The notes beneath the pieces were generated by a model. The model ran no database searches. It saw nothing but the letters and a program-made list of their open reading frames with translations, and was not told the origin of the DNA. From a virus, in the IMG/VR virus record IMGVR_UViG_3300022602_000186, positions 1 through 42,692 of that record: DNA of 42,692 bases; one strand, 5' to 3'. This document shows, piece after piece, positions 1,660-41,715 of this stretch; the stretch's first letter is position 1; every line of letters begins with the position of its first letter. The translations under genes and the position numbers were made by a program.

Positions 1660-2090
1660 AAGAATCAATTGTTTGTAGTGGAGCATTGTTTTATGCCAAG
1701 TCTACACGACGTTTTTTACTACTACAAAAAGCTCATGGCAAGCATGAAGGTACTTGGGGGTTAGTTGGTGGTACTAATATCACCGGCGAAACTCCTTGGC
1801 AAGGTCTTCAACGTGAAATTGCCGAAGAAATTGGTACAATTCCTAAAATTCTAAAAACAATTCCTTTAGAAACATTTGTATCAAACGATAGAGTCTTTAA
1901 TTTTCACACTTATTTGTGTGTGATAGACAAAGAGTTTGTTCCTGAACTTAGTGACGAACACTATGGCTGGTCATGGGCCACAGTAGACCGTGCTCCGAAA
2001 CCGTTACACCAAGGCCTACGTAATAGCTTTAGTAGTAAAACTATTCGTACAAAACTACAAACAATATTTGATTTAGTGGAATTAATATAA
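1641..2090 (+). CDS. Nudix (MutT-like) hydrolase
   Basis: A 149-residue protein with a near-perfect Nudix box: G44, five residues, E50, seven residues, then REIAEEIG (58-65). This is the GX5EX7REUXEEXG signature that binds Mg2+ and positions the diphosphate linkage. Nudix enzymes hydrolyse nucleoside diphosphates linked to another group, such as damaged dNTPs, ADP-ribose, NAD, nucleotide sugars or RNA caps. The WGLVGG segment just before the box is also typical. The substrate cannot be read from the sequence. The ATG lies 19 nt inside the end of gp15, and its TAA overlaps the ATG of the following oxygenase gene, so it is expressed in the same plus-strand transcript. Full length for a single-domain Nudix protein. 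Confidence 0.9.
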   Translation: MENSTVKESIVCSGALFYAKSTRRFLLLQKAHGKHEGTWGLVGGTNITGETPWQGLQREIAEEIGTIPKILKTIPLETFVSNDRVFNFHTYLCVIDKEFVPELSDEHYGWSWATVDRAPKPLHQGLRNSFSSKTIRTKLQTIFDLVELI

Positions 2091-2647
2091 TGCTATTACC
2101 AGTATGGATTACCGATTTACCCAGAATTGATAACTGGGATCATTATTATCATGATCTAGTAAGGCAACATAAAGAACATACCTATGGTACTAATTCCAAC
2201 GGGGACATGATTAATAATTTTATCATTGATGATCCAGACGGTGTGTGGGATAATTTATATCAACAGTTTCTTAACAAAAGCGTAGAACTATTTGGAGGAT
2301 TGGCTATATCTCCAAATAATTCAAGAAAGTGTTGGTTATACAGCGCAAACAACTCACATTATTTTAGAGGAATTCATAATCATAGAAATACTGCTATGAT
2401 TAATGGAGTTTATTATTTTTCAGTTCCTAAATCTGCTTACTATGAAGGAGCATTGACTTTCTTTGATCGGGATAACAATGATCTATGGACTTACAAACCC
2501 AGAGAACAGGACATGGTTATATTTCCGGGATTCTTGAATCATGAACCTAGTAAATCTAACACCGACACTTACCGATTTGCTATTAATATGGAAATACTAT
2601 GCGACTGGCCCAGCGCATGGGGGCCAGTGCCTGATGATTACACTTGA
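2090..2647 (+). CDS. 2-oxoglutarate/Fe(II)-dependent oxygenase-like protein
   Basis: A 185-residue protein with the C-terminal pattern of phage 2OG-Fe(II) oxygenases. IHNHRNTAMINGVYYF (95-110) holds the proximal metal-binding region, with H96 and H98. GALTFFDR (120-127) is the next strand. DMVIFPGFLNHEPSKS (141-156) carries the distal His151, and YRFAINMEI carries Arg162, which would bind the 2OG carboxylate. The usual HxD is replaced by HNH/HRN, as I expect for the '2OG-FeII_5/6' style of family rather than classic prolyl hydroxylase. The ATG overlaps the Nudix stop (TAATG). Its end overlaps by 10 nt the end of the opposite-strand small gene. Substrate unknown; DNA/nucleotide and protein hydroxylation are both possible. 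Confidence 0.72.
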   Translation: MLLPVWITDLPRIDNWDHYYHDLVRQHKEHTYGTNSNGDMINNFIIDDPDGVWDNLYQQFLNKSVELFGGLAISPNNSRKCWLYSANNSHYFRGIHNHRNTAMINGVYYFSVPKSAYYEGALTFFDRDNNDLWTYKPREQDMVIFPGFLNHEPSKSNTDTYRFAINMEILCDWPSAWGPVPDDYT

Positions 2648-2967
2648 GTTTTAAATTGTTCTTTTAAATTTTGTACCCAAGCATCAAATGTTCTAACATC
2701 TGCTTGTAGAACACAAAACGGGTAGCGCATACCGCCGTCTTCGTGAACAAATCCGTTAGCATGAATACCAATGCCGGTGCCGTTTACTAATTGATAAATT
2801 TCACTGTCTTTATAATCATAAGTTTCAGGTTCTTCTATCTTAAAATGTTGTTTAAGCATAGACGATAATTGTGTGAGACCGTGTTGCTCACAAATTCTAG
2901 CACACTCATTAGCTGCCACTTGGTGGTCTTCTGTAATACTGCCATAATCAAAAGGTTTAATATCCAT
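2638..2967 (-). CDS. Small conserved-looking protein of unknown function
   Basis: A 109-residue, mildly acidic, soluble protein without signal peptide or membrane segment; I do not recognise its family. It begins MDIKPFDYGSITEDHQVAAN and has a predicted helical first half and a mixed second half (IGIHANGFVHEDGG, then a helix around AWVQNLKEQF). Its ATG overlaps the TAA of the upstream oxygenase gene (TAATG), with GGAG about 11 nt upstream. It is therefore the last gene of the minus-strand 2OG-oxygenase operon. It converges on and overlaps the plus-strand oxygenase by 10 nt. Gene-like spacing and coupling, rather than homology, are the reasons to accept it. Confidence 0.65.
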   Translation of the reverse strand: MDIKPFDYGSITEDHQVAANECARICEQHGLTQLSSMLKQHFKIEEPETYDYKDSEIYQLVNGTGIGIHANGFVHEDGGMRYPFCVLQADVRTFDAWVQNLKEQFKTQV

Positions 2968-3626
2968 TAATTATTTGCTCCTTTACTTTGTTTATGACCT
3001 ATGCCTTTACGTTTATCGTAAGCATATTCTGGATAGTTTGGTCCATTTTTATCAATGTAATGTAAAAATGCCTGTACATGATAACTGCCTTCTTCGGCAT
3101 CAAATATATCACGCCAGTGTTCTACATCGCATCCTCGATAAATTACTACATCGCCTGGATTCATATCTATTCTAACTCCTGGATTATTTGAGCTGACAAA
3201 TTTACCATCAGGCATTGGTGTATTAAAACTTAATTCGTCCACATAAATTCCCCATCGATAGTCCGGATCTTTATGATTATATTTAAATCCTAAACAAACT
3301 GTAGTACTAATTTCACAACTAGGACGATCTTTATGTCTAAATAAATCATCTCCTGATTTATAAACTCTATAATAACTATATGTAGGACATAGTTCTAGTC
3401 CAGTATGTTTTTCCATATGGGGCAACATAAAGTGCATTAGCGTTTCCATCAATGTATCACTGTATATACTGTGTGTACCTGGTACTTGCTGACCCGTTGT
3501 TTCGGGATGAAACTCTGTTTCCATTTTTAGTAAAGCATACTTAGTTGCTACGTTACAAATTTCTTCCGGAACGAGTCCTGGAACAGAAGTATAATGATGT
3601 TGTTTAAAATATTCTAAATTGGTCAT
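2967..3626 (-). CDS. 2OG-Fe(II) oxygenase, prolyl-4-hydroxylase-like
   Basis: A 219-residue protein with an intact metal site: H98-K-D100 within DDLFRHKDRPSCEIS, and a distal His170 in GCDVEHWRD. The distal strand reads HVQAFLHYID, ending in a KNGPNYPEYAYD tail. This is typical of bacterial and phage P4H-type oxygenases with the 'eHWR...flHY.d..GP' ending. The residue that binds the 2OG C5 carboxylate is less obvious than the Arg of its neighbours. These enzymes couple decarboxylation of 2-oxoglutarate to hydroxylation of a protein, small molecule or base. The start overlaps the upstream gene by 4 nt (ATGA), and the stop overlaps the next ATG, so it is the middle of a tight operon. Confidence 0.85.
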   Translation of the reverse strand: MTNLEYFKQHHYTSVPGLVPEEICNVATKYALLKMETEFHPETTGQQVPGTHSIYSDTLMETLMHFMLPHMEKHTGLELCPTYSYYRVYKSGDDLFRHKDRPSCEISTTVCLGFKYNHKDPDYRWGIYVDELSFNTPMPDGKFVSSNNPGVRIDMNPGDVVIYRGCDVEHWRDIFDAEEGSYHVQAFLHYIDKNGPNYPEYAYDKRKGIGHKQSKGANN

Positions 3627-4426
3627 TTATATGGTTTTCCTAAATTCCACATTACTAGGCTAAAGCGTGTACCCCTGGTTACCGGAGTCACTTGGTGGTG
3701 TACAAAACTAGGAAATACAATTATACTTCCCTTTGGTCTAATTTCTTTACAAGTGTGATAACGTTTATCGTTGTGCGGACCAAAATCAAACTTTAAGTCT
3801 CCGCCATCGTAATTATCAGGATTAGTTAAATTAACAGTCATACTAATCTTACGAATTTTACCTACTTTGTTATCGTCCATTATTTTATAACGACTTTTAG
3901 GAATAGGATTATTAAACGCATCGAGTACACGAGTACCATCGGGATTTAAAACTACTTCGTCCTTTTCAGGATCAAATTTTTGATAAATCTCAGGGCCAGC
4001 ATCGGCGTGCCAGCCATAAAACTGTCCAACACCATACTTGGTAAATTGACAACTTTCGGACCAGTCCCATTCAAAATTCCAACCTGCTTGTGCGTTAGCT
4101 TGATGTACAAATGGTTGTAGTAAGTCATAAAGCCATCTGTCATCGAGCCATGCTACTTTTGTATCTCTGATATAAACTTCTTCAGGATTAATACCTTTTA
4201 GTTTTAAACCTTGTTTAGTTAATGCTCCTGCTGAAATGTCGCCTGCTGGAGCATCTCCAATATTTCCACCTTTTTGTTTAAAATCAAATGTGGTAGCATC
4301 TGTAGACCGCTCGCCATACAAGCGTTCAGTTTCGGCCATTTTGTCCATGCCGTAGTCGATAATCTTATTGCAGATATCGTGTGACAGTGCTTCTTTAAAC
4401 CAAAAATAATTATTTTCTAAAATCAT
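3623..4426 (-). CDS. 2OG-Fe(II) oxygenase, PKHD-type hydroxylase-like
   Basis: A 267-residue protein with all 2OG-oxygenase landmarks: YGWHADAG with H140 and D142, a doubled His in FPSFVHHQVTPVTRGTRFSL (H244 the likely iron ligand, R254 the likely 2OG ligand), and the strand ISMTVNLTNPDNYDGGDLKF between them. The 'FPSf.HhV.PVtrGtR' signature is that of PKHD-type/prolyl-hydroxylase domains. A ~40-residue insertion (about 148-190) lies between HxD and the next strand. It overlaps the genes on both sides by 4 nt (ATGA). It is a clear relative of the next upstream gene, which has the same overall order of motifs but has lost the metal ligands. Confidence 0.9.
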   Translation of the reverse strand: MILENNYFWFKEALSHDICNKIIDYGMDKMAETERLYGERSTDATTFDFKQKGGNIGDAPAGDISAGALTKQGLKLKGINPEEVYIRDTKVAWLDDRWLYDLLQPFVHQANAQAGWNFEWDWSESCQFTKYGVGQFYGWHADAGPEIYQKFDPEKDEVVLNPDGTRVLDAFNNPIPKSRYKIMDDNKVGKIRKISMTVNLTNPDNYDGGDLKFDFGPHNDKRYHTCKEIRPKGSIIVFPSFVHHQVTPVTRGTRFSLVMWNLGKPYK

Positions 4427-5079
4427 TTATAAGCGTTCCCGTGTATATTACCAGAGATAATAAATTTCTTACCTTTTTTAACTGTTCCTATGCTAAATGG
4501 TAAGAAACTAGGAAACACTAACATTGTTCCGGGTGTGTTAACTGTATCTTGATCCAATTCAGTATTTAAAAATTCAATTTCTCCTCCAGTGTATTCCGAA
4601 GGATCACTTAGCGTGATTAAAAATGATAATTTTCTAGTAGTCATTTCTGGGTTAATTTCAGAATGCGTATTATAAAAATCACCTTTGTTATATCTTACTA
4701 CCTGTGGATAATCATTATCGATCAATCCTAGTAATTCAAAATTATAAAATTCTTGATTAGCTGCAACAATAGCATCTCTAAACAATGTAAACGGAAAACT
4801 ATCTATTGATCCACGAACACGTTGTGATGTTGCGGATTGTATTTTACCTTTTCCTGTAATTTTAACCTCGGCCCATAACTCATCAATACAAGAATCTAAG
4901 ATCGATTTACATTGTTCTTTAGTAAACAACGGTGTTGATGTAATTGATAACATAGTTGCTACTGATGCCGGAATTAACGGCTTGTTTGTAGTTTCTAACA
5001 ATTCTTTATTAACGTCTACAGAAGCACTGTCTGTAAATTTCTCAGTAGTATTATCGGTTTTATCGGGGTTGGTAAACAT
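4423..5079 (-). CDS. 2OG-oxygenase-fold protein with degenerate metal site (pseudo-oxygenase)
   Basis: I start this gene at the ATG at 5079, preceded by AGAGGA at a normal distance, rather than an in-frame TTG at 5100; the product is 218 residues. It parallels the neighbouring PKHD-type enzyme: YNKGDFYNTHSEINPE, LSFLITLSDPSEYTGGEIEF, then MLVFPSFLPFSIGTV and KKGKKFIISGN. The catalytic positions have changed. HxD is H139-S-E141, the distal His is Phe195 (Pro194-Phe195 where the neighbour has His-His), and the 2OG-binding Arg is Lys205. It therefore probably does not turn over as a normal oxygenase. It may be a scaffold or a binding or partner subunit for the next gene, with which it overlaps by 4 nt. 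A CTAAATA late-promoter core lies just upstream. Confidence 0.82.
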   Translation of the reverse strand: MFTNPDKTDNTTEKFTDSASVDVNKELLETTNKPLIPASVATMLSITSTPLFTKEQCKSILDSCIDELWAEVKITGKGKIQSATSQRVRGSIDSFPFTLFRDAIVAANQEFYNFELLGLIDNDYPQVVRYNKGDFYNTHSEINPEMTTRKLSFLITLSDPSEYTGGEIEFLNTELDQDTVNTPGTMLVFPSFLPFSIGTVKKGKKFIISGNIHGNAYK

Positions 5080-5100
5080 AGGATCCTCTTTTTCTAGCAA

Positions 5101-5107
5101 TATTTAG
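5101..5107 (-). promoter_or_regulatory. T4-like late promoter core CTAAATA
   Basis: On the minus strand CTAAATA ends 21 nt before the ATG at 5079, with AGAGGA in between. The same heptamer precedes two fibre-type genes elsewhere in the window (12977-12983 and 41700-41706). T4-like phages use a short -10-type late element (TATAAATA in T4, related forms in marine relatives) read by the gp55 sigma factor. This would start the three-oxygenase operon late in infection. It is short enough to arise by chance; position is the main support. Confidence 0.5.
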
Positions 5108-5142
5108 TGAGTACAAAAACTCAAACATTTAGATTTGATCTA

Positions 5143-5901
5143 TCATTTTCTTAACAATCTTTTAGAAGCTTCGTAAAATGGTTTTAGCTCTTTAATAAAA
5201 CTCATATTAGATATGTAATTCCAAGAATCAGCAATATACCTATCTTCTTCTGTAGCAGTTTCTACTAGCAATTCTGTAGCAAAATCTTTAGGAATTGGTA
5301 TAAGTTGACACAACGGAGTGCCAGCTTTAACTTTAGTAGTACCGTCGAGTATGTGCCAGTATAGTTGTACATTTACTTCTATACTTTGTTCTGGATCAAA
5401 AATTCCCATGGCCGAAGTAAATGCGGTATGCTCCGGGTATGCTATAGGCATTTGTAAAAATACAATATCCGGAGAACTAAAAACTCGCCATCTAGTATTA
5501 ACTTTAATTAGAGATTTTAGTGTATCTTGTCTAAATGGAACATACCTATGTAATTGATTTGGCCCATGAAAATCTATGTAATCGTGTCCTTGAAATTTAG
5601 CATTAGTAGGAGCAGACCAATGAAAACCCGAATCATCTTCAGTCTTTGTAGTAATTGTGAAATCGATCGGGGCTGGCACAATAAACCCCGTTCTGTTCAA
5701 TTGAATTATTCCTGGGCATCTGTTTGTACCACTAAATCTAGTATCCACAGGCTGTGTTTTCATTGTTTCTTTGTAGTCCATTGCCGCCGCTCGCATCCAA
5801 TCCCATTTATAATCGGATGATTTAATAATAGGATGGGCAAACTCTACTCCAGGCATTAGATTAACAAATCTAGCAAAGGGTTGCTTTTTTTTAAAAAACA
5901 T
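5143..5901 (-). CDS. DUF6065-like protein of unknown function
   Basis: A 252-residue beta-rich protein starting MFFKKKQPFARFVNLMPG. Landmarks are NRCPGIIQLNRTGFIVPAPI (60-79), W-rich strands (FHWSAPTN, TRWRVFSSPDIVFLQMPIAY), and a C-terminal VNVQLYWHILDGTTKVKAG followed by TPLCQLIPIP. The pattern 'W..A...Y...C/R.PG....N..GF.v..P.d....vNv..W....G..v.aGtPl.qliP' reminds me of the DUF6065 family, sometimes found near halogenase genes; this is recollection, not a search. The AGGA ribosome site is about 11 nt before the ATG. It lies 17 nt downstream of the halogenase-like gene on the same strand, so the two are probably co-transcribed. No catalytic residues can be named. Confidence 0.6.
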   Translation of the reverse strand: MFFKKKQPFARFVNLMPGVEFAHPIIKSSDYKWDWMRAAAMDYKETMKTQPVDTRFSGTNRCPGIIQLNRTGFIVPAPIDFTITTKTEDDSGFHWSAPTNAKFQGHDYIDFHGPNQLHRYVPFRQDTLKSLIKVNTRWRVFSSPDIVFLQMPIAYPEHTAFTSAMGIFDPEQSIEVNVQLYWHILDGTTKVKAGTPLCQLIPIPKDFATELLVETATEEDRYIADSWNYISNMSFIKELKPFYEASKRLLRK

Positions 5902-5918
5902 ATAAATTATTTTTCCTG

Positions 5919-7142
5919 TTATGTTAAATGATATGTTGGATTATCGTTTTTTAATAAGTTCAAATCAATGTTGTAACCCTTGATATAGTATTCCATTATA
6001 AATCCATCGTGCGTAGAATAGTCAAAAAATCTGTTGTGTTCCTGACATCTATTAATCCACACTTGAAAACATTTAGAATTCTTTAATCTTTCTATAGCAC
6101 GGGGACGGATATAGTTCCAAAAATCACTATCTAAGTCGTGTTCTATGATATAGTTTAAGGCAATAATATCTTGAACTTGTTCCATTTGATTTAAATGGAT
6201 AGCATTGATTAAAAATCCTAATTTTTCTGGTGGTTGGAATATTTCGTGTATAAACTTAGCAACTAAATTTAGATAGTAATGTAAAGGAATAGCATGATGA
6301 GGTTCAAAAAAGTATAATTTATTCCCTAGTGCTAAAATACGTCCGTCTAATGCTTTCTTTTTATAGTAAGGATCCCATGATAGTTTTAGTAAATCAGTAG
6401 TATCTATATTTTTTAGATTTGAATACTTTTCGCCTGCTTGCTCTTTAGTTAAGAATTTTTTATTGTATAAAAATCCCCAGGCTTTTCTGTGCTGTAGTGG
6501 TACTCCAAACATCCAGCCATTATCATGGAAGTGTACAGATGTATACGGCTCTTCATATTTTTTAAAATCTGGATATAGTATAACTGCGTTAACAGATTCA
6601 AACGGATCAGTAACATAAGCTCCACTGGCAAAATCTTCTGCGGTTGGATTTCCACGGCAATCTAGGATATAGTCAAACTTATAAGAATTATTTTTACAAG
6701 TTACTGTAACAAAATCATCGTTTTGTTCAATTGAAACAACACCATCGTTTACTTTAGAAAAAAACGAATGACGTTTTGTCAAGTTGTCAGTAATATACTT
6801 GCTAAATTTTTGACTGTTTACATGGGCACCTGGACGCATGTGCCATAAATGGAAATTCTCAGCATCTTTAAGTAAATCGCCCATGTGATACCTAGAAAAA
6901 TATCTAGGTGTTCCATCTACATCATCAAGGAATTCAAAAAATTCAAGACCTAACACCGATTGCATTATAGCAATAACCGAAGGACTTATACCTTCACCAA
7001 CTTGCGCAATTGGTATATTTTCATCGTGTATACAGGTAATTTGAAATGGTTGATAACTAAAACCCTCGTGTAGAAATCGATCAGCCATCGCTAGTGATGC
7101 TACTGCGCCTGCCGCTCCGGCTCCTATGATACCTATTTGCAT
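5919..7142 (-). CDS. Flavin-dependent (tryptophan-)halogenase-like protein lacking the catalytic Lys
   Basis: A 407-residue protein with the PF04820 halogenase layout. A GxGxxG FAD site lies at IGAGAAGAVA (6-15), VGEGISPSV at 48-56, and GWMFGVP at 209-215 in place of the family's WxWxIP. FFEPHHAIPL (278-287) stands at the position of the EPLEST segment. The family's catalytic lysine (Lys79 in PrnA) sits in a 'tYKxGixFxxW' context; here the matching stretch reads GTPRYFSRYHMGD, putting Arg80 there. The protein is also about 100 residues shorter than typical enzymes. It could be an FAD mono-oxygenase or a halogenase variant. AAGGA precedes the ATG, with an AATAAATA late-type element at 7164-7171. 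It faces a divergent oxygenase gene. Confidence 0.8.
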   Translation of the reverse strand: MQIGIIGAGAAGAVASLAMADRFLHEGFSYQPFQITCIHDENIPIAQVGEGISPSVIAIMQSVLGLEFFEFLDDVDGTPRYFSRYHMGDLLKDAENFHLWHMRPGAHVNSQKFSKYITDNLTKRHSFFSKVNDGVVSIEQNDDFVTVTCKNNSYKFDYILDCRGNPTAEDFASGAYVTDPFESVNAVILYPDFKKYEEPYTSVHFHDNGWMFGVPLQHRKAWGFLYNKKFLTKEQAGEKYSNLKNIDTTDLLKLSWDPYYKKKALDGRILALGNKLYFFEPHHAIPLHYYLNLVAKFIHEIFQPPEKLGFLINAIHLNQMEQVQDIIALNYIIEHDLDSDFWNYIRPRAIERLKNSKCFQVWINRCQEHNRFFDYSTHDGFIMEYYIKGYNIDLNLLKNDNPTYHLT

Positions 7143-7163
7143 AATATATTCCTTAGTTGATGA

Positions 7164-7171
7164 TATTTATT
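7164..7171 (-). promoter_or_regulatory. T4-like late promoter core AATAAATA
   Basis: On the minus strand AATAAATA lies about 21 nt before the ATG at 7142, followed by AAGGA. It matches the T4 late consensus TATAAATA at seven of eight positions. It would drive the halogenase-like and DUF6065-like genes. It shares a 95-bp divergent intergenic space with a sigma70-like promoter facing the other way. Confidence 0.45.
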
Positions 7172-7189
7172 GGCATGGAAAAAATAAGG

Positions 7190-7218
7190 TTGCGAACTTG
7201 AAAGAATAATTATATAAT
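7190..7218 (+). promoter_or_regulatory. Sigma70-like promoter for the oxygenase/carbamoyltransferase pair
   Basis: TTGCGA (7190-7195, four of six matches to TTGACA) is followed after exactly 17 bp by a perfect TATAAT (7213-7218). The GTG start at 7238 lies 20 nt further on, behind AAGGA. Phage early genes often use such host-type promoters. If active, this pair of genes would be transcribed early, unlike the divergent late-type genes next door. Confidence 0.5.
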
Positions 7219-7237
7219 AACACAAACAAGGAATTTT

Positions 7238-7780
7238 GTGACTAAAATTGACAATCTATTAGTTTTGGATAATGCCTTAACTGCCGAACAATGCGATATG
7301 CTGATTGAATCGGGCTCGCTTAATTTAGATAAGAGTGATTTAGAATCTCATTTAGGTTATGAATTCCATGAATGGAAAATGTGGAATACCAACACAATTA
7401 TTCGACCACTAACTGACCTCGTAGTTCAAAAATATCGAACTCAATTTCCAGCTATTAATTATACAGAAACATTATGGGGAGTTGGAGATTGGCGGTTTAA
7501 ACATTTTCCTCCAGGATATTGTTTTCAAGATTGGCATCAAGAACATAGTGTAGAAAACTCTCTACGTATTGCTTGTATTCTAGTGTATCTCAGTGATCAT
7601 GATTGTGGTACAGAATTTTTAGCTACAGGTGAAACTATTAAAAGTGTCAAGGGAAGAGCTATAATGTTTCCTACCAGTTGGACACACACTCACCGAGGAC
7701 AACTATGTCCTGAAAATAAATCAAGATATATTATGAGTGCTTACGCATACCTAACCGACATGAGATCAAATGAGCAATAA
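7238..7780 (+). CDS. 2OG-Fe(II) oxygenase (HxE subtype)
   Basis: A 180-residue protein read from a GTG start; AAGGA at 7228-7232 fixes it. The metal site is H100-Q-E102 in FQDWHQEHS, with the distal His at 150 or 152 in FPTSWTHTHRGQLCPENK and a basic residue (K161/R163) for 2OG. Between them, LVYLSDHDCGTEFLATG is the usual linking strand. The HxE variant with 'WTHTHRG' also occurs in the gene at 13027-13569, and both sit next to a halogenase-like gene. It overlaps the carbamoyltransferase gene by 11 nt, so they are translated together. Substrate not inferable. Confidence 0.85.
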   Translation: MTKIDNLLVLDNALTAEQCDMLIESGSLNLDKSDLESHLGYEFHEWKMWNTNTIIRPLTDLVVQKYRTQFPAINYTETLWGVGDWRFKHFPPGYCFQDWHQEHSVENSLRIACILVYLSDHDCGTEFLATGETIKSVKGRAIMFPTSWTHTHRGQLCPENKSRYIMSAYAYLTDMRSNEQ

Positions 7781-9464
7781 AGATATAGTTAATGTAGGAG
7801 TTAGCAGGGTACATAATTCTGCCGTTACTGTACTAAAAAACGGTGAGTTAGTTTTTCATCTGGAAAACGAACGTCTTAGCAATATAAAATACGATGGTTA
7901 TTGTTTTCAAACAATGGCAAAAATTCCTGAATATGTGGATCACGTGGATCATTTATGTATAGCAGGTGTTAGAAAAACAGTTCCTATAGAAAGCTATACT
8001 GATCACGATGCTTTTACTACATTCATTACACATTTAAACAATCATTTTTATAAAAAAGAAATCAAAACACACGACTTATGGTCACAACATCACAAACTAC
8101 ATGCAGCTTGTGCTTTTTATAACAGTGGATTTAAAGAAGCAGTATGTATAATTAAAGACGGCATGGGGTCTGATTACTATATTGACGATCCTAAATTTAT
8201 CAAAGGATCTTATGGAAGAGAATCCTTTAGTACATTTTTAGCCGGATATCCAGCAATATTTGATCTAATTGATAAAAGTGTTGTGGTTCCATTTACGTGC
8301 GATACGGTGGTCAACAGGGTAGTTAAAATTAATAATAGTCCAAGTGAAGGACAAACATTTCAAGTTATATCTAGTCATTTTGGATTTCATCCGCTCGATG
8401 CTGGAAAAGTTATGGGTATGAGTAGTTATGGAAAACCTGATGAGTCTTTTCCGCCTATTATTGTTGATAAAAAAACAAATCCTAAATTATTTAAAATAAG
8501 TGATGTTGGTGTATCTGAACTAAGTTTGAATACCGACATATTTCCCACCCTGACTGATGAATTTCAAAGCCAAGCAGATTTAGCCTACGAACTTCAACAA
8601 CAAACTCAGCAAGAAGTTAAAAGATATATTTTAGAAATGGTTGAAAAGACCAAATGTAAAAATGTTGTCTTAAGCGGCGGATACTTTTTAAATTGTGTTG
8701 CTAACTATGAAATATTAAGAGATCTTCCAGATGATATTGAAATTTATGTAGAGCCAATTAGCAGTGATGCGGGCACTAGTATTGGAGCTGCCAAATATGT
8801 ATGGCACGCCACTACTAATGACATGACCATTAGACCGCAAAAAGACATTTATCACGGGCTTGTACACAATTATACTGAACAAGATATTTTAAATCGTTTA
8901 AAAACAGAAACATATAAAAAAGTAACACCTGCGGATATAGCACAGTTGATAGCGGATAAAAATATTGTAGCATTGTATCAAGGACGCAGTGAATCTGGGC
9001 CACGAGCATTGGGCAACAGAAGTATACTGTATGATCCAAGAGATCCTAATGGAAAAGATCATGTTAATACTGTAAAAAATCGTGAATGGTTCAGACCGTT
9101 TGCTGGTACTGTGTTACATGAAAAAACTAATGATTGGTTTGATTTAAGAGGATTAGAAGAAAGTTCATTTATGATGTATGCGGTGGATGTGCTAAAAGAC
9201 AAGCAAAGTATAATTCCAGCAATCACTCATGTAGATGGGACTTGTAGAGTACAAACATTAAAGCAAGAAATTAATCCTAATTATTACAAACTGATAGAAG
9301 AATTTGATCGTATAACTGGTGTTCCAATACTATTCAACACTAGTTTTAATCTTGCGGGAGACTGTATTTGCGAAACTATAGATGATGCGTTACGTACTAT
9401 TAGGAATAGCAGTATAAACTATCTTTACTTGCCAGAATTTAATTTATTAATTTCAAAAAATTGA
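7770..9464 (+). CDS. Carbamoyltransferase, NodU/CmcH (TobZ) family
   Basis: A 564-residue, full-length two-domain enzyme. The N-terminal TsaD/Kae1-like part makes carbamoyl-adenylate: QHHKLHAACAFYNSGF (107-122) has the metal-binding His residues, and LSGGYFLNCVAN (301-312) is the nucleotide-binding loop. The C-terminal part is diagnostic: YQGRSESGPRALGNRSIL (403-420), NREWFRPFAGTVL (437-449), ESSFMMYAVDV (464-474) and GVPILFNTSFNLAGDCICET (517-536). Known relatives transfer a carbamoyl group to a hydroxyl on a sugar or antibiotic. Phage members acting on hydroxymethylated cytosine have also been reported. It needs carbamoyl phosphate and ATP. It is translationally coupled to an oxygenase that could supply the acceptor hydroxyl. 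Its last 40 nt overlap the convergent gene. Confidence 0.95.
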   Translation: MSNKDIVNVGVSRVHNSAVTVLKNGELVFHLENERLSNIKYDGYCFQTMAKIPEYVDHVDHLCIAGVRKTVPIESYTDHDAFTTFITHLNNHFYKKEIKTHDLWSQHHKLHAACAFYNSGFKEAVCIIKDGMGSDYYIDDPKFIKGSYGRESFSTFLAGYPAIFDLIDKSVVVPFTCDTVVNRVVKINNSPSEGQTFQVISSHFGFHPLDAGKVMGMSSYGKPDESFPPIIVDKKTNPKLFKISDVGVSELSLNTDIFPTLTDEFQSQADLAYELQQQTQQEVKRYILEMVEKTKCKNVVLSGGYFLNCVANYEILRDLPDDIEIYVEPISSDAGTSIGAAKYVWHATTNDMTIRPQKDIYHGLVHNYTEQDILNRLKTETYKKVTPADIAQLIADKNIVALYQGRSESGPRALGNRSILYDPRDPNGKDHVNTVKNREWFRPFAGTVLHEKTNDWFDLRGLEESSFMMYAVDVLKDKQSIIPAITHVDGTCRVQTLKQEINPNYYKLIEEFDRITGVPILFNTSFNLAGDCICETIDDALRTIRNSSINYLYLPEFNLLISKN

Positions 9465-9955
9465 AAACGCTTGTACCAAGTGGCTATTGTCCAACGGTTG
9501 CCTTGAGTAACTGGTGAAACTTCGTGGTACATTTCATTACCTTTAAAAGTAATTATTTTACCTGTTTGCGGAGTTATATCAGTTCCACTTATATGTGTAT
9601 GACCACCTTCAAAATCATCATTTAAATAAATTATAGAAGTATACGGATGAAAATTTAAATCTATATGTCTAGCTTGACGGCTTTGTTCTGGCCAATGTAC
9701 TACTCGACTATAGTTAGGAAATACGCAAGGATCTATTGAAATTATATGTGCCGCTATACGAGCATTAATTAATTTAATAGGATCAGTTGAATCTCGTGTG
9801 TTTTTGTTACACATGGATAACACGGTATCCTGGAGATCTATTATATTAGTATCAAAAAATTCTTCTCCAAATTCTGAGTAGTGTATTTTATGGAAATTAA
9901 TCCACCAAGCACACTCCTCACTAGTTAAAAAATTTTCTACTACTGTAATAGACAC
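9425..9955 (-). CDS. 2OG-Fe(II) oxygenase, prolyl-hydroxylase-like
   Basis: A 176-residue protein with a complete active site: H97-I-D99 in QARHIDLNFHPYTSIIYLND, distal His144 in MYHEVSPVTQGNRW, and Arg154 for 2OG. FEGGHTHISG links the two. The signature 'YHEVsPVt.G.R' is classic for P4H-type domains. The ATG is only two bases after the stop... of the intervening space: the glycine-rich gene at 9958-11028 lies directly upstream on the same strand, so the oxygenase is the last gene of the adhesin operon. Its last 40 nt overlap the end of the carbamoyltransferase gene on the other strand. Co-transcription with adhesin genes is the best contextual hint that an adhesin is its substrate. Confidence 0.9.
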   Translation of the reverse strand: MSITVVENFLTSEECAWWINFHKIHYSEFGEEFFDTNIIDLQDTVLSMCNKNTRDSTDPIKLINARIAAHIISIDPCVFPNYSRVVHWPEQSRQARHIDLNFHPYTSIIYLNDDFEGGHTHISGTDITPQTGKIITFKGNEMYHEVSPVTQGNRWTIATWYKRFQFFEINKLNSGK

Positions 9956-9957
9956 AA

Positions 9958-11028
9958 TTAGTATCTTACAATAACAATTCCTGGGCCGCCATTTCCGCCG
10001 TATCCGTTACCGGTTCCAGCTGGTCCGCCGTAGCCACCGCCTCCACCACCGCCACCACCGGTAGCAAAACCGCCTGGCATTCCGTTACCGCCGTGCATGC
10101 CGCCCATACCGCCACCGCCCATACCACCCATACCTGGATTATTAGTACTACCAGATTGTGAACCAGTGCCACCACCGCCACCACCGCCATAGTAAGTTTC
10201 GTAACCATTGATTCTGAACAGTACTCCAATGCCGCCTGCCGCAGGAGCAGTATTACCACCAGATTGTCCAGCTCCACCAGCACCACCACCGCCTGCTCCT
10301 AACCAAGGAGCACTTTGTCCCGGTGCGTTATTTCCGCCTGGCCATCCGTGTCCAATTGCGTTACCGTGAGGATTGCTTGATTGTGTTCCAGGCCCTGGGC
10401 CATTAACGTTACCACCAGCACCACCGCCTGATCCGCCTGATAGTCCTGGATATCCTGAAGGTCCAGAACCACCGCCACCACCGCCGACTGCGGTTAAATT
10501 TCCAAATACGCTATTACTTCCATTTGAACCTGGTTGTTGGCCTGGGCCTCCGCCGTTACCACCTCCACCAACTGTTACTGGAATACCAACACCGCCGGTT
10601 ACTGGATAAACTCCATAGTGAACTACTCCACCAGCGCCGCCGCCACCGCCGCCGTCAGTTCCGCCTGAACCTGCGCCAGCATTACGACTACCGCCTCCGC
10701 CTCCTCCGGCAACTACTAATACTTCAACTGTAGTAATACCTACAGGAGGTACAAATGTATAACTACCAACTTGGTTAAATGTGTGAATAGTTGTTTTTAA
10801 TGTGTTGTAACCATATCCGCTACGATCAGCAATATTACCGTTAATAGTAGATGCTGGTGTATTTTCAAATTGTAGCCAAAGTGTTCCATTATAGTATTCA
10901 CTACAATTTAAAGTTGTATTGAATCTCAACATTCCTGCTGCAGGACTTGCCGGACGTTGTGCTGTTGTTCCGGCCGGTAATTGTAAGTATCCTGAGCCCG
11001 ATATCGTTGTATCTACTAACTGTGCCAT
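9958..11028 (-). CDS. Glycine-rich tail-fibre/adhesin protein, one Gly-rich unit
   Basis: A 356-residue protein. Residues 1-55 form an anchor seen in all three glycine-rich genes here: MAQLVDTTISGSGYLQLP, TTAQRP, then GMLRFNTTLNCSEYYNGTLW. After a short linker comes one unit that opens with YTFVPPVGITTVEVLVVAGGGGGG, continues as long Gly runs broken by short variable loops, and ends GIVIVRY. Such polyglycine repeats form type II helix sandwiches in gp38-like phage adhesins, where the loops bind the receptor; the link is by analogy. AAGGA stands before the ATG. It is co-transcribed with the glycine-rich gene upstream and the oxygenase downstream. Confidence 0.85.
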   Translation of the reverse strand: MAQLVDTTISGSGYLQLPAGTTAQRPASPAAGMLRFNTTLNCSEYYNGTLWLQFENTPASTINGNIADRSGYGYNTLKTTIHTFNQVGSYTFVPPVGITTVEVLVVAGGGGGGSRNAGAGSGGTDGGGGGGAGGVVHYGVYPVTGGVGIPVTVGGGGNGGGPGQQPGSNGSNSVFGNLTAVGGGGGGSGPSGYPGLSGGSGGGAGGNVNGPGPGTQSSNPHGNAIGHGWPGGNNAPGQSAPWLGAGGGGAGGAGQSGGNTAPAAGGIGVLFRINGYETYYGGGGGGGTGSQSGSTNNPGMGGMGGGGMGGMHGGNGMPGGFATGGGGGGGGGYGGPAGTGNGYGGNGGPGIVIVRY

Positions 11029-11037
11029 GTATTTTCC

Positions 11038-12945
11038 TTAATATCTGATGATAACAATACCAGAACCGCCTGGAGCACCAGAACCGCCTGGCAGATTGCT
11101 AATATACGGACTATTTCCAGCGCCACCGCCGCCACCTGAGCCAGTACCGTTAACACCTGGTTGTCCGTTTTGGCTAGCATCCATTTGGTTTCCGCCGGCG
11201 CCACCAACACCACCAGCAATATAATTGCCGCCAAACGCACTAAATTCGCCTCCGCCAACACCACCTAAACTTGTACTTGGTCCAGCTCCGCCACCTCCGC
11301 CGCCAGCGGCATACATTGTAGTGTAACCAGTAATATTACTATATCGACCTTGTCCGCCATTACCATAAGCACCACTTGATCCGGATGCCGCGCCATTGTT
11401 TGCTCCAGCGCCACCGCCACCTGCTCCTGTATATGGAGCACCTGGTGGGTTTGAAGCACCACCGTTACCAAAGCCAAATAATGTTGGACTATATGGCGTT
11501 TGTGTTGCGCTAGTTCCTGGGTTAGCATTACCACCAGCACCACCTCCAGAACCGCCTGGATAAGCAGTTGGACCGCTTGGTCCAGAACCGCCACCACCAC
11601 CACCTAATGCTATGGCAGCACCAAATACACTATTTCCGCCTGATGCTCCTGGGCTTTGTCCGCCTGGATTGGGACTTCCTGCTAGACCACCACCAGCGCC
11701 ACCGGCGCCAACTGTAACTGTATAACTTTGACCGGGAGTTACAAAATAAGTGCCTTCTAACATACCACCAGCACCACCACCGCCACCGCCGTCGGTGCCG
11801 CCACCGCCTGGTCCACTGTTTCGTGTTCCACCGCCACCACCACCGCCGACAATTAATACCGCTACTTGTGTAACTCCTGGAGGAGCAACCCATGTATATG
11901 TTCCAACAGAAGTAAATGAGTGTACTGTATCTTTTCTTATACTACCGCCACTGCCTTGTGTACGAATTGGATACCATTGTGTTCCATCATTATATTCCAT
12001 TTGGTTGGTACTAGTGTTAAAACGCATTTGTCCAGCTGAAACGTTTGTTTGAATAATAACAACACCAGATCCACCATCACCAGCGCCGCCCCATGAGCCA
12101 TAGTATGCTCCACCGCCGCCGCCTGTATTAGCTACACCGTTATTTGGTGTTAGATTGTAACCAGTTGTAGTTCCACCGCCACCTGCTCCACCTAAATAAT
12201 AAACACCTGATTGAACTGAATATAAACCTTGTACGTTACTTCCGTTTGGTGCTGGTCCGCCGCAGCCACCGCCGCCGCCGCCGAAGAATTGATTAAAGAA
12301 TTTTACACCGTGGCCGCCGCGTCCTGAGTTGTTGCCCGGGAATCCGTAAGGTTCTGGAGTTTGTCCGCCTGCTGTTCCAGCGCCACCGCCACCTGCTCCA
12401 CCTGGGCTTGCTTCGCCAGGATTACCATATTGTACCCAGCCTGGAGGTTGTCCTGGTTGTGTTTGACTTGGTTGTGTGCCTGTTCCTGCTGGACGACCAC
12501 TACCACCACCTCCACCTGATCCACCTGGTGAACCATTGGTTGAACCAGCACTTCCACCGCCTCCACCACCTCCAATAGCTGTTAAACCATTGAATTGACT
12601 ATTACCGCCGTTTTGTCCTGCGTTAACACTACTAGTTCCTCTGCTGCCGCCAGCGCCGACAGTAATTGGATAGCTGTTGCCTGGTGTTACCGGATATGCG
12701 CCGTGATAAACAACTCCACCACCGCCTCCACCACCGGCGTAGTCTTGTGTACCACCACCACCTCCAGCAACTACTAATACTTGAATACTAGTAACACCAG
12801 CTGGGCAAGTCCAACTTGAATTTCCTACTGTGGTAAATGTATAATATCCTTGTACTCCGCCGGTGCCACCACGTTGAGCTGTGGTTCCCGAAGCAACTTG
12901 GAGATATCCAGTAGTAGTTATTGATGTATTTTGTAGGTTAGCCAT
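11038..12945 (-). CDS. Glycine-rich tail-fibre/adhesin protein, two Gly-rich units
   Basis: A 635-residue relative of the preceding protein. It starts MANLQNTSITTTGYLQVA and TTAQRG, but a complete extra Gly-rich unit (about 35-305) lies between that and the second half of the anchor (AGQMRFNTSTNQMEYNDGTQW, about 307-327). A second Gly-rich unit then runs to the C-terminus (GIVIIRY). Each unit begins with a 'yt..PaGVt.v.VLvVgGGGGG' strand. The ATG is preceded by AAGGA and, 32 nt upstream, by a CTAAATA late promoter core. The third such gene (15362-17260) has the same two-unit order. Opposite-strand open frames here are artefacts of the Gly codons. Confidence 0.87.
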   Translation of the reverse strand: MANLQNTSITTTGYLQVASGTTAQRGGTGGVQGYYTFTTVGNSSWTCPAGVTSIQVLVVAGGGGGTQDYAGGGGGGGVVYHGAYPVTPGNSYPITVGAGGSRGTSSVNAGQNGGNSQFNGLTAIGGGGGGGSAGSTNGSPGGSGGGGGSGRPAGTGTQPSQTQPGQPPGWVQYGNPGEASPGGAGGGGAGTAGGQTPEPYGFPGNNSGRGGHGVKFFNQFFGGGGGGCGGPAPNGSNVQGLYSVQSGVYYLGGAGGGGTTTGYNLTPNNGVANTGGGGGAYYGSWGGAGDGGSGVVIIQTNVSAGQMRFNTSTNQMEYNDGTQWYPIRTQGSGGSIRKDTVHSFTSVGTYTWVAPPGVTQVAVLIVGGGGGGGTRNSGPGGGGTDGGGGGGAGGMLEGTYFVTPGQSYTVTVGAGGAGGGLAGSPNPGGQSPGASGGNSVFGAAIALGGGGGGSGPSGPTAYPGGSGGGAGGNANPGTSATQTPYSPTLFGFGNGGASNPPGAPYTGAGGGGAGANNGAASGSSGAYGNGGQGRYSNITGYTTMYAAGGGGGGAGPSTSLGGVGGGEFSAFGGNYIAGGVGGAGGNQMDASQNGQPGVNGTGSGGGGGAGNSPYISNLPGGSGAPGGSGIVIIRY

Positions 12946-12976
12946 AATTCCTTATTCTCAGAACATTTTGATATTA

Positions 12977-12983
12977 TATTTAG
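12977..12983 (-). promoter_or_regulatory. T4-like late promoter core CTAAATA
   Basis: On the minus strand CTAAATA lies 32 nt before the ATG at 12945, with AAGGA between. It fits late expression of the adhesin-adhesin-oxygenase operon 12945-9425. The same heptamer is found before other late-type genes in this window. Confidence 0.55.
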
Positions 12984-13026
12984 TCAATTATATGGATACA
13001 TTTCCTAGAAACTGCTAATTAACTGT

Positions 13027-13569
13027 ATGAACGCTCCTGAAACATTTATACGCCAGGGAAAAATTTCCAGTGAAATTTGCCAATCTTTAATAAAACTATT
13101 TAATAATACTCCTAGAAAATTTTGGTCAGAAGTGAAAGATTGCGAAGGACAGTGGGAAGAAACCGATTTTCTCCCTACAGACCCGGTAATGTCCGAGTAC
13201 ATTTCTCACTTACAAACTGTAATGGATAGCTACATAGCCGAATTTCCGTATGTTAATATGTATTCGCCATTTACTATAGTAGAGCCTATTAAAATACAGC
13301 ACTATACACCTGCTGCAGGATACAATGTATGGCATACTGAAAGAGGCAGTAAGCATTTTGAAAACAGAAATCGCCATTTAGTTTTTATGACATACTTGAA
13401 TACCGTTACAGATCAGGGCGGAACCGAATTTATGCATCAGAAATGTATTACAAGAGCCGAAGAAGGTGTAACGCTAATATGGCCGGCCGACTGGACTCAT
13501 ACACATCGCGGGGTTATTAGCCCCACACAAGAAAAGTACATTATAACAGGATGGTATAATTTTATATGA
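13027..13569 (+). CDS. 2OG-Fe(II) oxygenase (HxE subtype), coupled to halogenase
   Basis: A 180-residue protein closely similar in plan to the one at 7238-7780. The metal site is H103-T-E105 in YNVWHTERGS, with the distal His at 158 or 160 in WPADWTHTHRGVISPTQEK, and K170 in the basic 2OG-binding position. MTYLNTVTDQGGTEF is the strand between them. This 'wH.E ... WtHtHrG' group is common in marine T4-like phages. I see no convincing ribosome site before the ATG, though no better start exists. Its stop overlaps the halogenase ATG by 4 nt (ATGA). Upstream, TTGATA (12968) and TATATG (12989) with a 15-bp spacer make only a weak sigma70-like promoter. Confidence 0.87.
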   Translation: MNAPETFIRQGKISSEICQSLIKLFNNTPRKFWSEVKDCEGQWEETDFLPTDPVMSEYISHLQTVMDSYIAEFPYVNMYSPFTIVEPIKIQHYTPAAGYNVWHTERGSKHFENRNRHLVFMTYLNTVTDQGGTEFMHQKCITRAEEGVTLIWPADWTHTHRGVISPTQEKYIITGWYNFI

Positions 13570-15032
13570 AATCAATCAAAAAACTAGCAGTTGTTGGTGG
13601 CGGTACAGCAGGGTTTGTATCTGCACTGATATTAAAGACTAGGTTTCCTGATATACAAGTGGACGTTATTAGATCAACTGCTATAGGTATTGTAGGAGTC
13701 GGCGAAGGTAGTACAGAACATTGGAAAGAGTTTATGGATTTTGTAGGTATTGATCAGTATACTTTGATTAAGGAAACTGATGCTACTTATAAATGCGGAA
13801 TTATGTTTAAAGACTGGACTGATAATGATTACTTACATTCGGTGTTAACTCCGTTTGATGCTAAAATTGGTCAATATCGGTATGTGTATGCTAGTCAAAT
13901 AGCCAAAAGAGTTCCTAGCCAAGAAATGTCGTCTTCTAGATTTTGGCGTAGTACTATTAATGCTTGGTATCTTAACAATCCTAAAGAAAGTCCAACAAAT
14001 CAATATCATTTTAATACATCTAAGCTAAATGATTTTTTAACAAAGACAGCTATCGGTAAGAACATTAATGTTATCGATGATATAATTAATGATGTTACTA
14101 TTAATGAATCAGGAGATATCGATTCATTAATTGGCGATAAACAAACTTATGAATATGATTTTTATATCGATAGCACTGGATTTAAAAGATTACTAATAGG
14201 AAAATTAGGAGCTAAGTGGGAAAGTTATGGCAAATATCTTAAAATGAAAGCGGCTATAGCATTTCCTACTCCAGATACAGAAAACTACAACATGTGGACG
14301 CTTGCTAAAGCCATGGACTATGGTTGGATGTTTAGGATTCCAACATATGGCCGTGGTGGCAATGGTTATATCTATGACAGCGATTACATTACTGTAGATC
14401 AAGCTAAACAAGAAACAGAACAGTATTTGGGTCACGAAATTACTATAGGAAAAGAATTTAAATTTGATCCAGGCGCTGTAGATAAATGTTGGATTAATAA
14501 TTGTGTTGCTATCGGACTAAGTGCTAGTTTTGTAGAACCGTTAGAAGCTACTAGTATTGGAACTAGTATTCAACAATCATTTTTGCTTATGCACAGATTA
14601 ATTAACTACGATCAAAAAGTAATCAGCAACTATAATAAAGCTATCAACGATGTAATGGAAAATATTAGAGATTTTGTAGCATTACACTATGTAGTTAAAA
14701 AAGATTCTACAGATTTCTGGAAAAACGTTTCAAATATGGAACTTCCAGATTCCTTAAATTCTAAGCTAGAAGTATGGCGTCATAAATTGCCTATTAAGGA
14801 AGATTTTAATAGTCTCAGTGACTATATTATGTTTACTGAACAACATCATATACTAGTGATGCATGGATTAGGATTGTTTGATACGGATAGTATTCGTCAA
14901 GAAGTAGAATCTTTAGGACCATTTGTAAACATCAATGCCCAAGAAGTAATTAATAACGAACGTCAATTTGTATTAGATACCAAAGAAATTACTCATAAAA
15001 TGATGATTAGCGTTATTCGTGATACTAAATAA
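13566..15032 (+). CDS. Flavin-dependent tryptophan halogenase family protein, catalytic residues intact
   Basis: A 488-residue protein close to the usual family length. The FAD site is VVGGGTAGFVSA (9-20), followed by VGEGST (45-50). ATYKCGIMFKDW (73-84) carries Lys76, matching Lys79 of PrnA and RebH, the residue that forms or relays the chlorinating species. GWMFRIP (253-259) corresponds to WxWxIP with the second Trp as Phe. FVEPLEATSIG (322-332) holds the conserved active-site Glu segment, and RDFVALHYVV follows as expected. With FADH2, oxygen and halide such enzymes halogenate Trp or other indoles and phenols; a flavin reductase must come from elsewhere. It is translationally coupled to the oxygenase before it. 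Substrate not inferable. Confidence 0.93.
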   Translation: MKSIKKLAVVGGGTAGFVSALILKTRFPDIQVDVIRSTAIGIVGVGEGSTEHWKEFMDFVGIDQYTLIKETDATYKCGIMFKDWTDNDYLHSVLTPFDAKIGQYRYVYASQIAKRVPSQEMSSSRFWRSTINAWYLNNPKESPTNQYHFNTSKLNDFLTKTAIGKNINVIDDIINDVTINESGDIDSLIGDKQTYEYDFYIDSTGFKRLLIGKLGAKWESYGKYLKMKAAIAFPTPDTENYNMWTLAKAMDYGWMFRIPTYGRGGNGYIYDSDYITVDQAKQETEQYLGHEITIGKEFKFDPGAVDKCWINNCVAIGLSASFVEPLEATSIGTSIQQSFLLMHRLINYDQKVISNYNKAINDVMENIRDFVALHYVVKKDSTDFWKNVSNMELPDSLNSKLEVWRHKLPIKEDFNSLSDYIMFTEQHHILVMHGLGLFDTDSIRQEVESLGPFVNINAQEVINNERQFVLDTKEITHKMMISVIRDTK

Positions 15033-15043
15033 TTTGCTAAATA
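15025..15043 (+). promoter_or_regulatory. Tandem T4-like late promoter cores (two CTAAATA)
   Basis: CTAAATA occurs at 15025-15031 and again at 15037-15043. The first overlaps the last codons of the halogenase gene. The first would give a leader of about 20 nt that keeps the ribosome site at 15048-15053; the second would start almost on that site, so the first is the more likely one. Two exact copies this close, right before a small gene, are unlikely to be chance. Confidence 0.5.
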
Positions 15044-15060
15044 CATTTAGGAGCAATCAA

Positions 15061-15306
15061 ATGGCAAATCAAGCAGAACTATTAGCAAAATTAAATCCGG
15101 AGTGGAATTTATACATTTTTGATGGGCACATCCCCGAGCTTATTTTAGAGTGGCAAGCTTCTGGCAATCTTAATGATTTTTCTGTGTATCCACACTTTGA
15201 ACCAGATGATAAGGATTATACTATCTTTACTACTAAATTAAAAACTCTGGAAGATTTTACTCCAAGTGCTAGTCTTTTAAGTCAAGTAAGAGTGCTTGAA
15301 AGATAA
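15061..15306 (+). CDS. Small protein of unknown function
   Basis: An 81-residue protein. I place the start at the ATG at 15061, with TTAGGAG at 15047-15053 at ideal spacing, and not at an ATG 42 nt upstream that has no such site. It begins MANQAELLAKLNPEWNLYIF, has acidic, aromatic stretches (FEPDDKDYTIF) and no transmembrane segment. I do not recognise it. It has its own late-type promoters and is followed at once by a strong terminator, so it can be expressed as a separate short transcript. A small virion or assembly protein is possible, but nothing shows it. Confidence 0.7.
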   Translation: MANQAELLAKLNPEWNLYIFDGHIPELILEWQASGNLNDFSVYPHFEPDDKDYTIFTTKLKTLEDFTPSASLLSQVRVLER

Positions 15307-15319
15307 TATAGCATCCATT

Positions 15320-15348
15320 AAAAAAGGCACTAAAAAGTGCCTTTTTTT
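15320..15348. terminator. Bidirectional intrinsic terminator
   Basis: A-tract, GGCACT, AAAA loop, AGTGCC, T-tract (stem 15326-15331 with 15336-15341, extended by A-T pairs). It has A-runs on one side and T-runs on the other, so it works in both directions. It sits between the ends of the converging genes 15061-15306 (plus) and 15362-17260 (minus). It is the only clear intrinsic terminator I found in the window. Confidence 0.92.
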
Positions 15349-15361
15349 GTGACTTGATATT

Positions 15362-30104: not shown

Positions 30105-30124
30105 TTTATATCATCCTCTGATAG

Positions 30125-30132
30125 TATTTATC
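30125..30132 (-). promoter_or_regulatory. Possible T4-like late promoter core GATAAATA
   Basis: On the minus strand GATAAATA lies in the 41-nt gap between the two giant genes, about 20 nt before the ATG at 30104 and followed by AGAGGATG. It matches the T4 late consensus at seven of eight positions. It would give the 3768-aa gene its own late transcript. Confidence 0.4.
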
Positions 30133-41691: not shown

Positions 41692-41699
41692 AGTAATAG

Positions 41700-41706: not shown

Positions 41707-41715
41707 CTGTTTTGG

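Follow-up and report, generated by a model that had tools for sequence, protein, structure and literature searches.

A single linear virus record of IMG/VR (IMGVR_UViG_3300022602_000186), analysed over its whole length of 42,692 bases (the window), carries a cassette of putative protein-tailoring enzymes among glycine-rich adhesin genes. The window starts with genes for gp15 and a NUDIX hydrolase and ends with a fibre operon that includes two giant fibre genes. The interval between them encodes seven 2-oxoglutarate (2OG)-type proteins, two halogenase-family flavoproteins and one carbamoyltransferase, along with one phrog_7084 protein and two glycine-rich adhesins, a third adhesin being located just outside. 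The left border of this variable region is formed by gp15, the tail sheath stabiliser/terminator (157-1659, plus strand; PF16724, 79.5 bits; phrog_11196), and its conserved partner, the NUDIX hydrolase (1641-2090, plus; PF00293), an adjacency seen in 44 pairs. gp15 is closest to jumbo phages of the T4 superfamily (Sinorhizobium Phosso, Agrobacterium Atu_ph07, Pseudomonas PA5oct/MIJ3), and these best matches led us to reject a cyanophage origin, while its close relatives were found as IMG/VR contigs only. The phage is large, of freshwater type, and belongs to a T4-related, jumbo-type lineage.

An earlier note, made from the sequence of this DNA, had counted seven proteins of the 2OG-Fe(II) fold. 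The number holds and six of the seven carry a metal-binding motif, but g07 lacks the distal histidine. Pfam matches to PF13640 or PF13759 were obtained for g03, g06, g07, g10, g12 and g15. The iron triad is present as HxD...H in g05, g06 and g12 and as HxE...H in g10 and g15, while 2OG1 (g03; 2090-2647, plus), a 2OG-FeII_Oxy_5-type oxygenase, has HxH in place of HxD/E and lies above the cut-off for both PF13759 (35.5 bits) and PF13640. Within a minus-strand operon, 2OG2 (g06; 3623-4426; PF13640, 52 bits) is a PKHD-type oxygenase with a complete HxD...H...R, and its PDB matches are PiuC/PKHD hydroxylases. Its neighbour g05 (2967-3626) stayed without a Pfam hit up to E=10, and a profile search found no solved structure for it. 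What points to a 2OG enzyme here is a triad (H98, D100, H170) that is invariant throughout the g05 family, together with a weak hhalign match (48.6% only) to a 2OG profile of the prolyl 4-hydroxylase (P4H) type. 2OG3 (g07; 4423-5079; PF13640, 38.8 bits) and six orthologues lack the distal iron-binding histidine, yet its position beside g06 and g05 is conserved, and the protein is probably a non-catalytic (pseudoenzyme) partner in an operon with two intact 2OG genes. Its start is most likely the ATG at 5079, behind a late-promoter-like site, rather than the TTG at 5100. The operon also encodes g04 (2638-2967, minus; phrog_10937), a small conserved protein that recurs beside g05 and g06 homologues.

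The remaining 2OG genes adjoin the other enzymes and the adhesins. 2OG4 (g10; 7238-7780, plus) is the upstream partner of the carbamoyltransferase gene and scored 66.9 bits with phrog_61 and 25.1 bits with PF13640, which is below the 27-bit cut-off. 2OG5 (g12; 9425-9955, minus; PF13640, 46 bits) begins 2 bp after the adhesin gene g13 on the same strand and thereby closes the adhesin operon, as the earlier note had it. 2OG6 (g15; 13027-13569, plus; PF13640, 31 bits) is P4H-like and overlaps the start of hal2 by 4 bp. A family profile built for these three proteins found its best matches among P4Hs (3itq, 5hv0 and 5c5t; E=3e-15 to 3e-14), which we take to include enzymes of Bacillus (3itq) and a chlorella virus (5c5t) as well as the collagen type. 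2OG6, 2OG4 and 2OG5 thus look like P4H kin with predicted activity on peptidyl-proline, although g10 and g15 differ from the matched enzymes in having HxE for HxD. The label 'ferrochelatase' that PHROGs gives to g05 and the label 'DNA endonuclease V' in PHROGs and GenBank were taken as mislabels, because the matched proteins carry 2OG-type motifs. The 'ferrochelatase' and 'DNA endonuclease (V)' labels of phrog_2954, phrog_3531, phrog_2297 and phrog_274 likewise sit on 2OG-motif proteins and are probably propagated misannotation.

Both flavoproteins described as halogenases in the earlier note have the Trp_halogenase domain, but in one of them arginine replaces the catalytic lysine. hal2 (g16; 13566-15032, plus; PF04820, 310 bits; GGGTAG, K76, E324, E327) keeps the GxGxxG flavin motif, the catalytic lysine and the active-site glutamate, and its PDB matches reach E=2e-62. 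It has no canonical WxWxIP, the corresponding segment being GWMFRIP with phenylalanine for the second tryptophan. With its catalytic residues intact, hal2 is halogenase-like and predicted to halogenate; no close bacterial homologues of its clade were confirmed in a search of genome contigs. The divergent hal1 (g09; 5919-7142, minus; PF04820, 101 bits) has lost a lysine that is kept in 71 of 73 phage homologues. It is probably inactive as a halogenase, and we class it as a halogenase-like flavoprotein only. A close point of comparison is VirX1 of cyanophage Syn10 (PDB 6QGM), described as an iodinase of broad scope whose active site is open (PMC8407142). hal2 shares its fold family as well as the flavin motif and catalytic residues, but is nearer to other PDB halogenases and has WMFRIP for WxWxIP, and its phage lineage is not that of cyanophages. 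In syn9, a gene for a halogenase of 530 aa (VirX1 has 531) lies ∼2.3 kb from Gly_rich_2 adhesins; we equate syn9 gp42 with VirX1 by inference from the matching length and the kinship of the two phages rather than from aligned sequences.

Beside hal1 lies g08 (5143-5901, minus), a member of phrog_7084 of the kind found next to halogenases. It had been called DUF6065-like, yet no Pfam family matched it at E≤10. Its AlphaFold2 model, of moderate confidence (predicted local distance difference test score, pLDDT, 71.8), instead resembles the dUTPase fold, with many Foldseek dUTPase matches at E∼1e-3 and best target template-modelling scores of 0.67-0.70. Its GxxD and AGTPxxQ segments resemble dUTPase motifs III and IV.

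The single carbamoyltransferase gene of the earlier note, g11 (7770-9464, plus), proved intact, encoding both the N- and C-terminal domains (PF16861, 200 bits; PF02543, 86 bits) and the motif GPRALGxR. The protein is TobZ/NodU-like, and its PDB matches are TobZ, GdmN and novobiocin-type O-carbamoyltransferases. Glycine-rich adhesins amid the enzymes were likewise borne out, with Gly_rich_2 (PF21722) detected in g13 (9958-11028, minus; 60 bits), in g14 with two modules (11038-12945, minus; 124 bits) and in the third adhesin g18 outside the interval (15362-17260, minus; 129.5 bits), with which the fibre operon ends. The AlphaFold2 model of g13 (pLDDT 80.6) matches the fibre 7ypx of cyanophage Pam3 (E=1.3e-5) and the Bxb1 tail tip, and also weakly the glycine-rich region of ALK. 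Together with the Gly_rich_2 domain, this polyglycine fibre fold of the model marks g13 as a polyglycine phage adhesin or fibre protein.

Whether such enzymes co-occur with adhesins in related phages had been set beforehand as a check that could refute the link, and the association holds across separate phage groups. One approach was anchored on the carbamoyltransferase in IMG/VR, so that the anchor sequence chose the clade and not the neighbours. An intact carbamoyltransferase gene was found within 3 kb of a glycine-rich-type gene in 25 of 30 loci (15/19 after dereplication), mostly directly tail-to-tail, and within 3 kb of a 2OG gene in 27 of 30 (16/19 dereplicated). The carbamoyltransferase-adhesin link persists across orientations and genome positions. 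Loci with split carbamoyltransferase genes served as an internal control and had neither an adhesin (0/9) nor a 2OG gene (0/9) at that distance. This group is separate, and its members with enough flank have neither kind of neighbour within that range; in L157, L162, L167-L178 and L184 the gene is spread over two or more frames across ∼2.3 kb, by insertion or as a split gene.

The other approach scanned 14 complete cyano- and pelagiphage genomes with Pfam models, with expectations from random rotation; as these genomes are related to one another, the p-values are optimistic. Halogenase genes lay within 3 kb of Gly_rich_2 in 7 of 16 cases against 0.9 expected (p<0.0002) and, counted per genome, in 4 of 9 against 0.74 (p=0.003), whereas the control transaldolase gene talC came within 10 kb of an adhesin in only 1 of 10. 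For 2OG genes, 21 of 76 were within 10 kb of Gly_rich_2 (p=0.003). Immediate adjacency of 2OG and halogenase genes was not above chance in the cyanophage genomes at 500 or 2000 bp; it recurs in 24 fetched IMG/VR loci, several of which are near-identical contigs. Annotated gene orders agree with the association: fibre, hypothetical protein, halogenase and 'gp37-gp38 adhesin tip' in S-SRM01, adhesin-P4H-2OG-halogenase-2OG-'ferrochelatase'-LamG protein in Sf-CH11, and collagen genes close to the halogenase in actinophage DSL-LC01. In S-SSM5 and P-RSM4, the fibre end carries an adhesin-carbamoyltransferase-2OG cluster resembling that of the window, with a glycine-rich protein, a tail-to-tail carbamoyltransferase gene (52% identity) and then 2OG and 'ferrochelatase' genes, but it belongs to another phage family and has no halogenase inside. 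We found no description of this cluster as a unit in the literature searched. The association with adhesins is not due to chance; it is real, recurrent and selected.

The cassette is conserved in part and otherwise fluid. A 147-kb relative (L049/L123) shares gp15, NUDIX, g04-g07, the carbamoyltransferase, adhesins 1 and 2, 2OG6-hal2, adhesin 3, the S74 fibre and a giant fibre, while 2OG1, g08-hal1, 2OG4 and 2OG5 are additions of the window to this skeleton. Measured against this relative (61-73% identity), the ratios of nonsynonymous to synonymous substitution rates (dN/dS) are 0.07 for hal2, 0.09 for g06, 0.15 for the carbamoyltransferase, 0.16 for g05 and 0.27 for 2OG6, and these cassette enzymes are under purifying selection. 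Identity to the L049 counterparts is 68-70% for the carbamoyltransferase and hal2 but only 59% for gp15, which suggests that the cassette moves as a block with the adhesins. Among gp15-anchored loci with at least 3 kb downstream, 2OG, halogenase or carbamoyltransferase genes follow gp15 in all 13 with ≥80% gp15 identity, in none of 5 at 50-79% and in none of 7 below 50%. Even among relatives at 93% the content differs strongly. What recurs are the modules 2OG-2OG, 2OG-halogenase and carbamoyltransferase-2OG, and many phages hold one or two only.

Adhesin composition offers hints at the substrate. In the glycine-rich part, median proline content is 6.3% for adhesins that have a 2OG gene no farther than 3 kb away and 3.7% for the others (p∼1e-4), a contrast that remains with one value per contig (26 vs 10; p=1e-4). 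The collagens of actinophage DSL-LC01, which are naturally proline-rich, were left out of this test; with them included, p=0.007. The contrast is also seen within contigs, at 7.1 and 6.4 versus 2.9 and 2.8 in L128 and at 6.8 versus 2.3 in L129, where, as an exception, a short glycine-rich stretch elsewhere has 11% proline. Tyrosine is slightly higher in adhesins beside halogenases (5.3 vs 4.5% of non-glycine residues; p=0.007). A C-terminal tyrosine was dismissed as a halogenation site, since the ending '..VIVRY' also occurs without a halogenase and is uninformative.

Several of these genes, and a giant fibre gene, are preceded by candidate late promoters. Late promoters read TATAAATA in T4 and NATAAATA in S-PM2 (PMC2984593). 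The strict T4 form is absent from the window, while a relaxed 8-mer, MTAAATAY, fits start sites; it occurs seven times, compared to ∼20 in shuffles, and five sites are correctly oriented 16-30 bp upstream of a start codon (binomial p=5e-9). They precede g07 of the 2OG operon (CTAAATAT; 5100-5107, minus; 20 bp upstream), hal1 (ATAAATAT; 7163-7170, minus; 20 bp), g14 at the head of the adhesin operon with 2OG5 (CTAAATAT; 12976-12983, minus; 30 bp), an ATG at 15061 inside g17 (CTAAATAC; 15037-15044, plus; 16 bp) and the giant fibre gene g21 (30124-30131); a sixth lies 126 bp upstream of g25. In relatives, a slightly looser motif is found in 14 of 111 upstream stretches of enzyme or adhesin genes against a background of 1.3%. 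The motif supports, but does not prove, late expression of the cassette.

What we observed is gene content, catalytic residues, recurrent adjacency and late-promoter-like sites. From these we propose, with about an even chance of being right, that the phage directs hydroxylation, carbamoylation and halogenation by enzymes made late in infection at its own adhesins; which protein is the substrate, which residues are modified, in what sequence and with what effect on host binding are deductions. Late in infection, polyglycine-type adhesins for the tail fibres would be made together with the enzymes and modified before or during assembly. P4H-like 2OG oxygenases would hydroxylate proline or similar residues in the glycine-rich domains, the O-carbamoyltransferase could cap a part of the hydroxyls, whether newly formed or belonging to a sugar on the adhesin, and hal2 might halogenate exposed aromatic residues such as tyrosine. 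As host recognition evolves, enzyme modules would be swapped along with the adhesins. The joint pathway envisaged in the earlier note stands in part: since the carbamoyltransferase adjoins 2OG genes in nearly all intact loci, hydroxylation followed by O-carbamoylation is plausible, but one route that also takes in halogenation finds no support. In many phages a halogenase accompanies an adhesin with no carbamoyltransferase, or a carbamoyltransferase accompanies 2OG and adhesin genes with no halogenase, so that the enzymes resemble independent modules directed at one class of protein. As for the targets that had been listed, fibre or adhesin residues gain support, while DNA bases lose it through the evidence given below.

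Several observations weigh against this adhesin-directed proposal. Taken as a class, the 2OG genes of cyanophages show just a weak link to adhesins, with 7 of 76 lying within 3 kb of one (p=0.10), and halogenase or carbamoyltransferase genes of P-SSM2 and at least one copy in each of S-RIM44, S-SSM7 and S-SSM5 are far from Gly_rich_2. The differences in proline and tyrosine could reflect lineage. The late motif was picked after inspection of these very upstream sequences and was not found before g10-g11 and g15-g16. The fold predicted for g08, being dUTPase-like, points towards nucleotides, and in S-SSM7 and S-CAM1 the carbamoyltransferase is accompanied by ADP-heptose-type genes near structural genes, so that the acceptor may be a sugar; their gene order suggests heptose-bearing fibres or a change of the lipopolysaccharide (LPS).

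This last arrangement leads to an alternative in which the enzymes remodel the LPS or capsule of the host, or a glycan attached to the fibres, and thereby mask receptors or exclude superinfection. NodU/NolO and TobZ carbamoylate sugars, and g11 is kin to such enzymes, as its PDB matches indicate; besides the heptose-pathway neighbours, a glycosyltransferase gene lies beside the DSL-LC01 halogenase, and adhesin neighbours would be expected as both concern the host surface. On the other hand, Pfam and PHROG annotation of the window reveals neither a glycosyltransferase nor a sugar-nucleotide gene, the matches of the 2OG profile are to prolyl hydroxylases that act on proteins, and the late-promoter-like sites seem late for exclusion. 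We know of no case of glycan halogenation either, and consider glycan remodelling unlikely. Rather unlikely, too, is that the enzymes are passengers, namely unrelated auxiliary metabolic genes that gather in a hypervariable region flanking the genes for host recognition and whose products act on free metabolites such as the 2OG pool, tryptophan or antibiotics. The strongly differing content among gp15 relatives would fit, cyanomyoviruses are known to have a hypervariable region from g15 to g18 (PMC2984593), and published proposals hold that the 2OG enzymes of cyanophages modulate the 2OG pool and nitrogen stress or take part in DNA repair (PMC3037559) and that prnA has a role in antibiotic protection (PMC2984593). 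Yet the metabolic gene talC shows no adhesin adjacency, the carbamoyltransferase keeps its link to adhesins whatever its orientation and position, 2OG-halogenase and 2OG-2OG operon pairs are conserved, and selection on the enzymes is purifying.

DNA hypermodification, with hydroxylated pyrimidines being carbamoylated, has a precedent in the 5-hydroxymethylcytosine (5hmC) carbamoyltransferase found by MetaGPA (PMC8670742), a phage enzyme that has the same Pfam pair and reaction type as g11. 2OG enzymes and the dUTPase-fold g08 would suit base chemistry and keep this option slightly alive. In the tree, however, g11 groups with L049, L054, S-SSM5 and P-RSM4 and is distant from the enzyme shown to act on 5hmC, and it has GPRALGNR where that enzyme has GPRALCNT (G and R vs C and T; TobZ numbering of these residues was inferred from the motif). 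The MetaGPA enzyme has thymidylate-synthase neighbours, while those of the cassette are adhesins and not nucleotide genes. A search of four IMG/VR relatives, all fragments and including the 147-kb one, gave no member of the ThyA/dCMP-hydroxymethylase family. On the tree, the motif residues and the ThyA search, we disfavour 5hmC-type carbamoylation and regard DNA as a very improbable target.

Genes for 2OG oxygenases, 'prnA' halogenases and carbamoyltransferases, widespread in marine phages, are as a rule classed as metabolic, and the roles given to them in nitrogen stress, DNA repair or antibiotics are speculative. The enzyme families are individually known, whereas their use on adhesins, as read from the genes, would be a new proposal: a small search of the open-access literature found no earlier one, nor any report of what viral halogenases act on in nature. 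Mizuno et al. (2014; PMC3909814) list Fe(II)-dependent oxygenases among under-recruiting genes in 'host recognition' metaviromic islands; in contrast to the present reading, excerpts of that paper put forward no mechanism and no halogenase, carbamoyltransferase or adhesin modification. Modification of adhesins, if true, would give viral halogenases a concrete, testable substrate, imply a host-recognition chemistry that is invisible in protein sequence and extends receptor binding beyond the 20 amino acids, and provide enzymes of use for protein modification. A broader claim, that several distant phage lineages carry an exchangeable late toolkit for their own polyglycine adhesins and that a phage adhesin is the natural substrate of VirX1-type halogenases, is put forward tentatively, as possible but doubtful.

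To the right of the cassette, the fibre operon that ends in g18 also encodes a fibre protein carrying an S74 chaperone domain (17260-18387, minus; PF13884) and the giant tail fibres of 3768 aa (g21; 18798-30104, minus; phrog_9851, PF02839) and 3133 aa (30146-39547, minus). CBM_5_12 domains are repeated in both giant fibres and LamG is present in the latter. In S-PM2, the halogenase frame (AJ630128.1, 121319-122608) has an in-frame TAA and no full-length gene is annotated. In DSL-LC01 (OQ999401.1, 97347-108783), genes for two collagens, a hypothetical protein, a halogenase and a glycosyltransferase stand in a row. Finally, a segment resembling 'TTAQRP...RFNT...EYYNGTxW' is common to the glycine-rich adhesins of the window (9958-17260) and to g25/g26 (40517-42690), and also occurs in other virion proteins (PDB 9d83 Gp49, a weak match); it is possibly a virion attachment segment.

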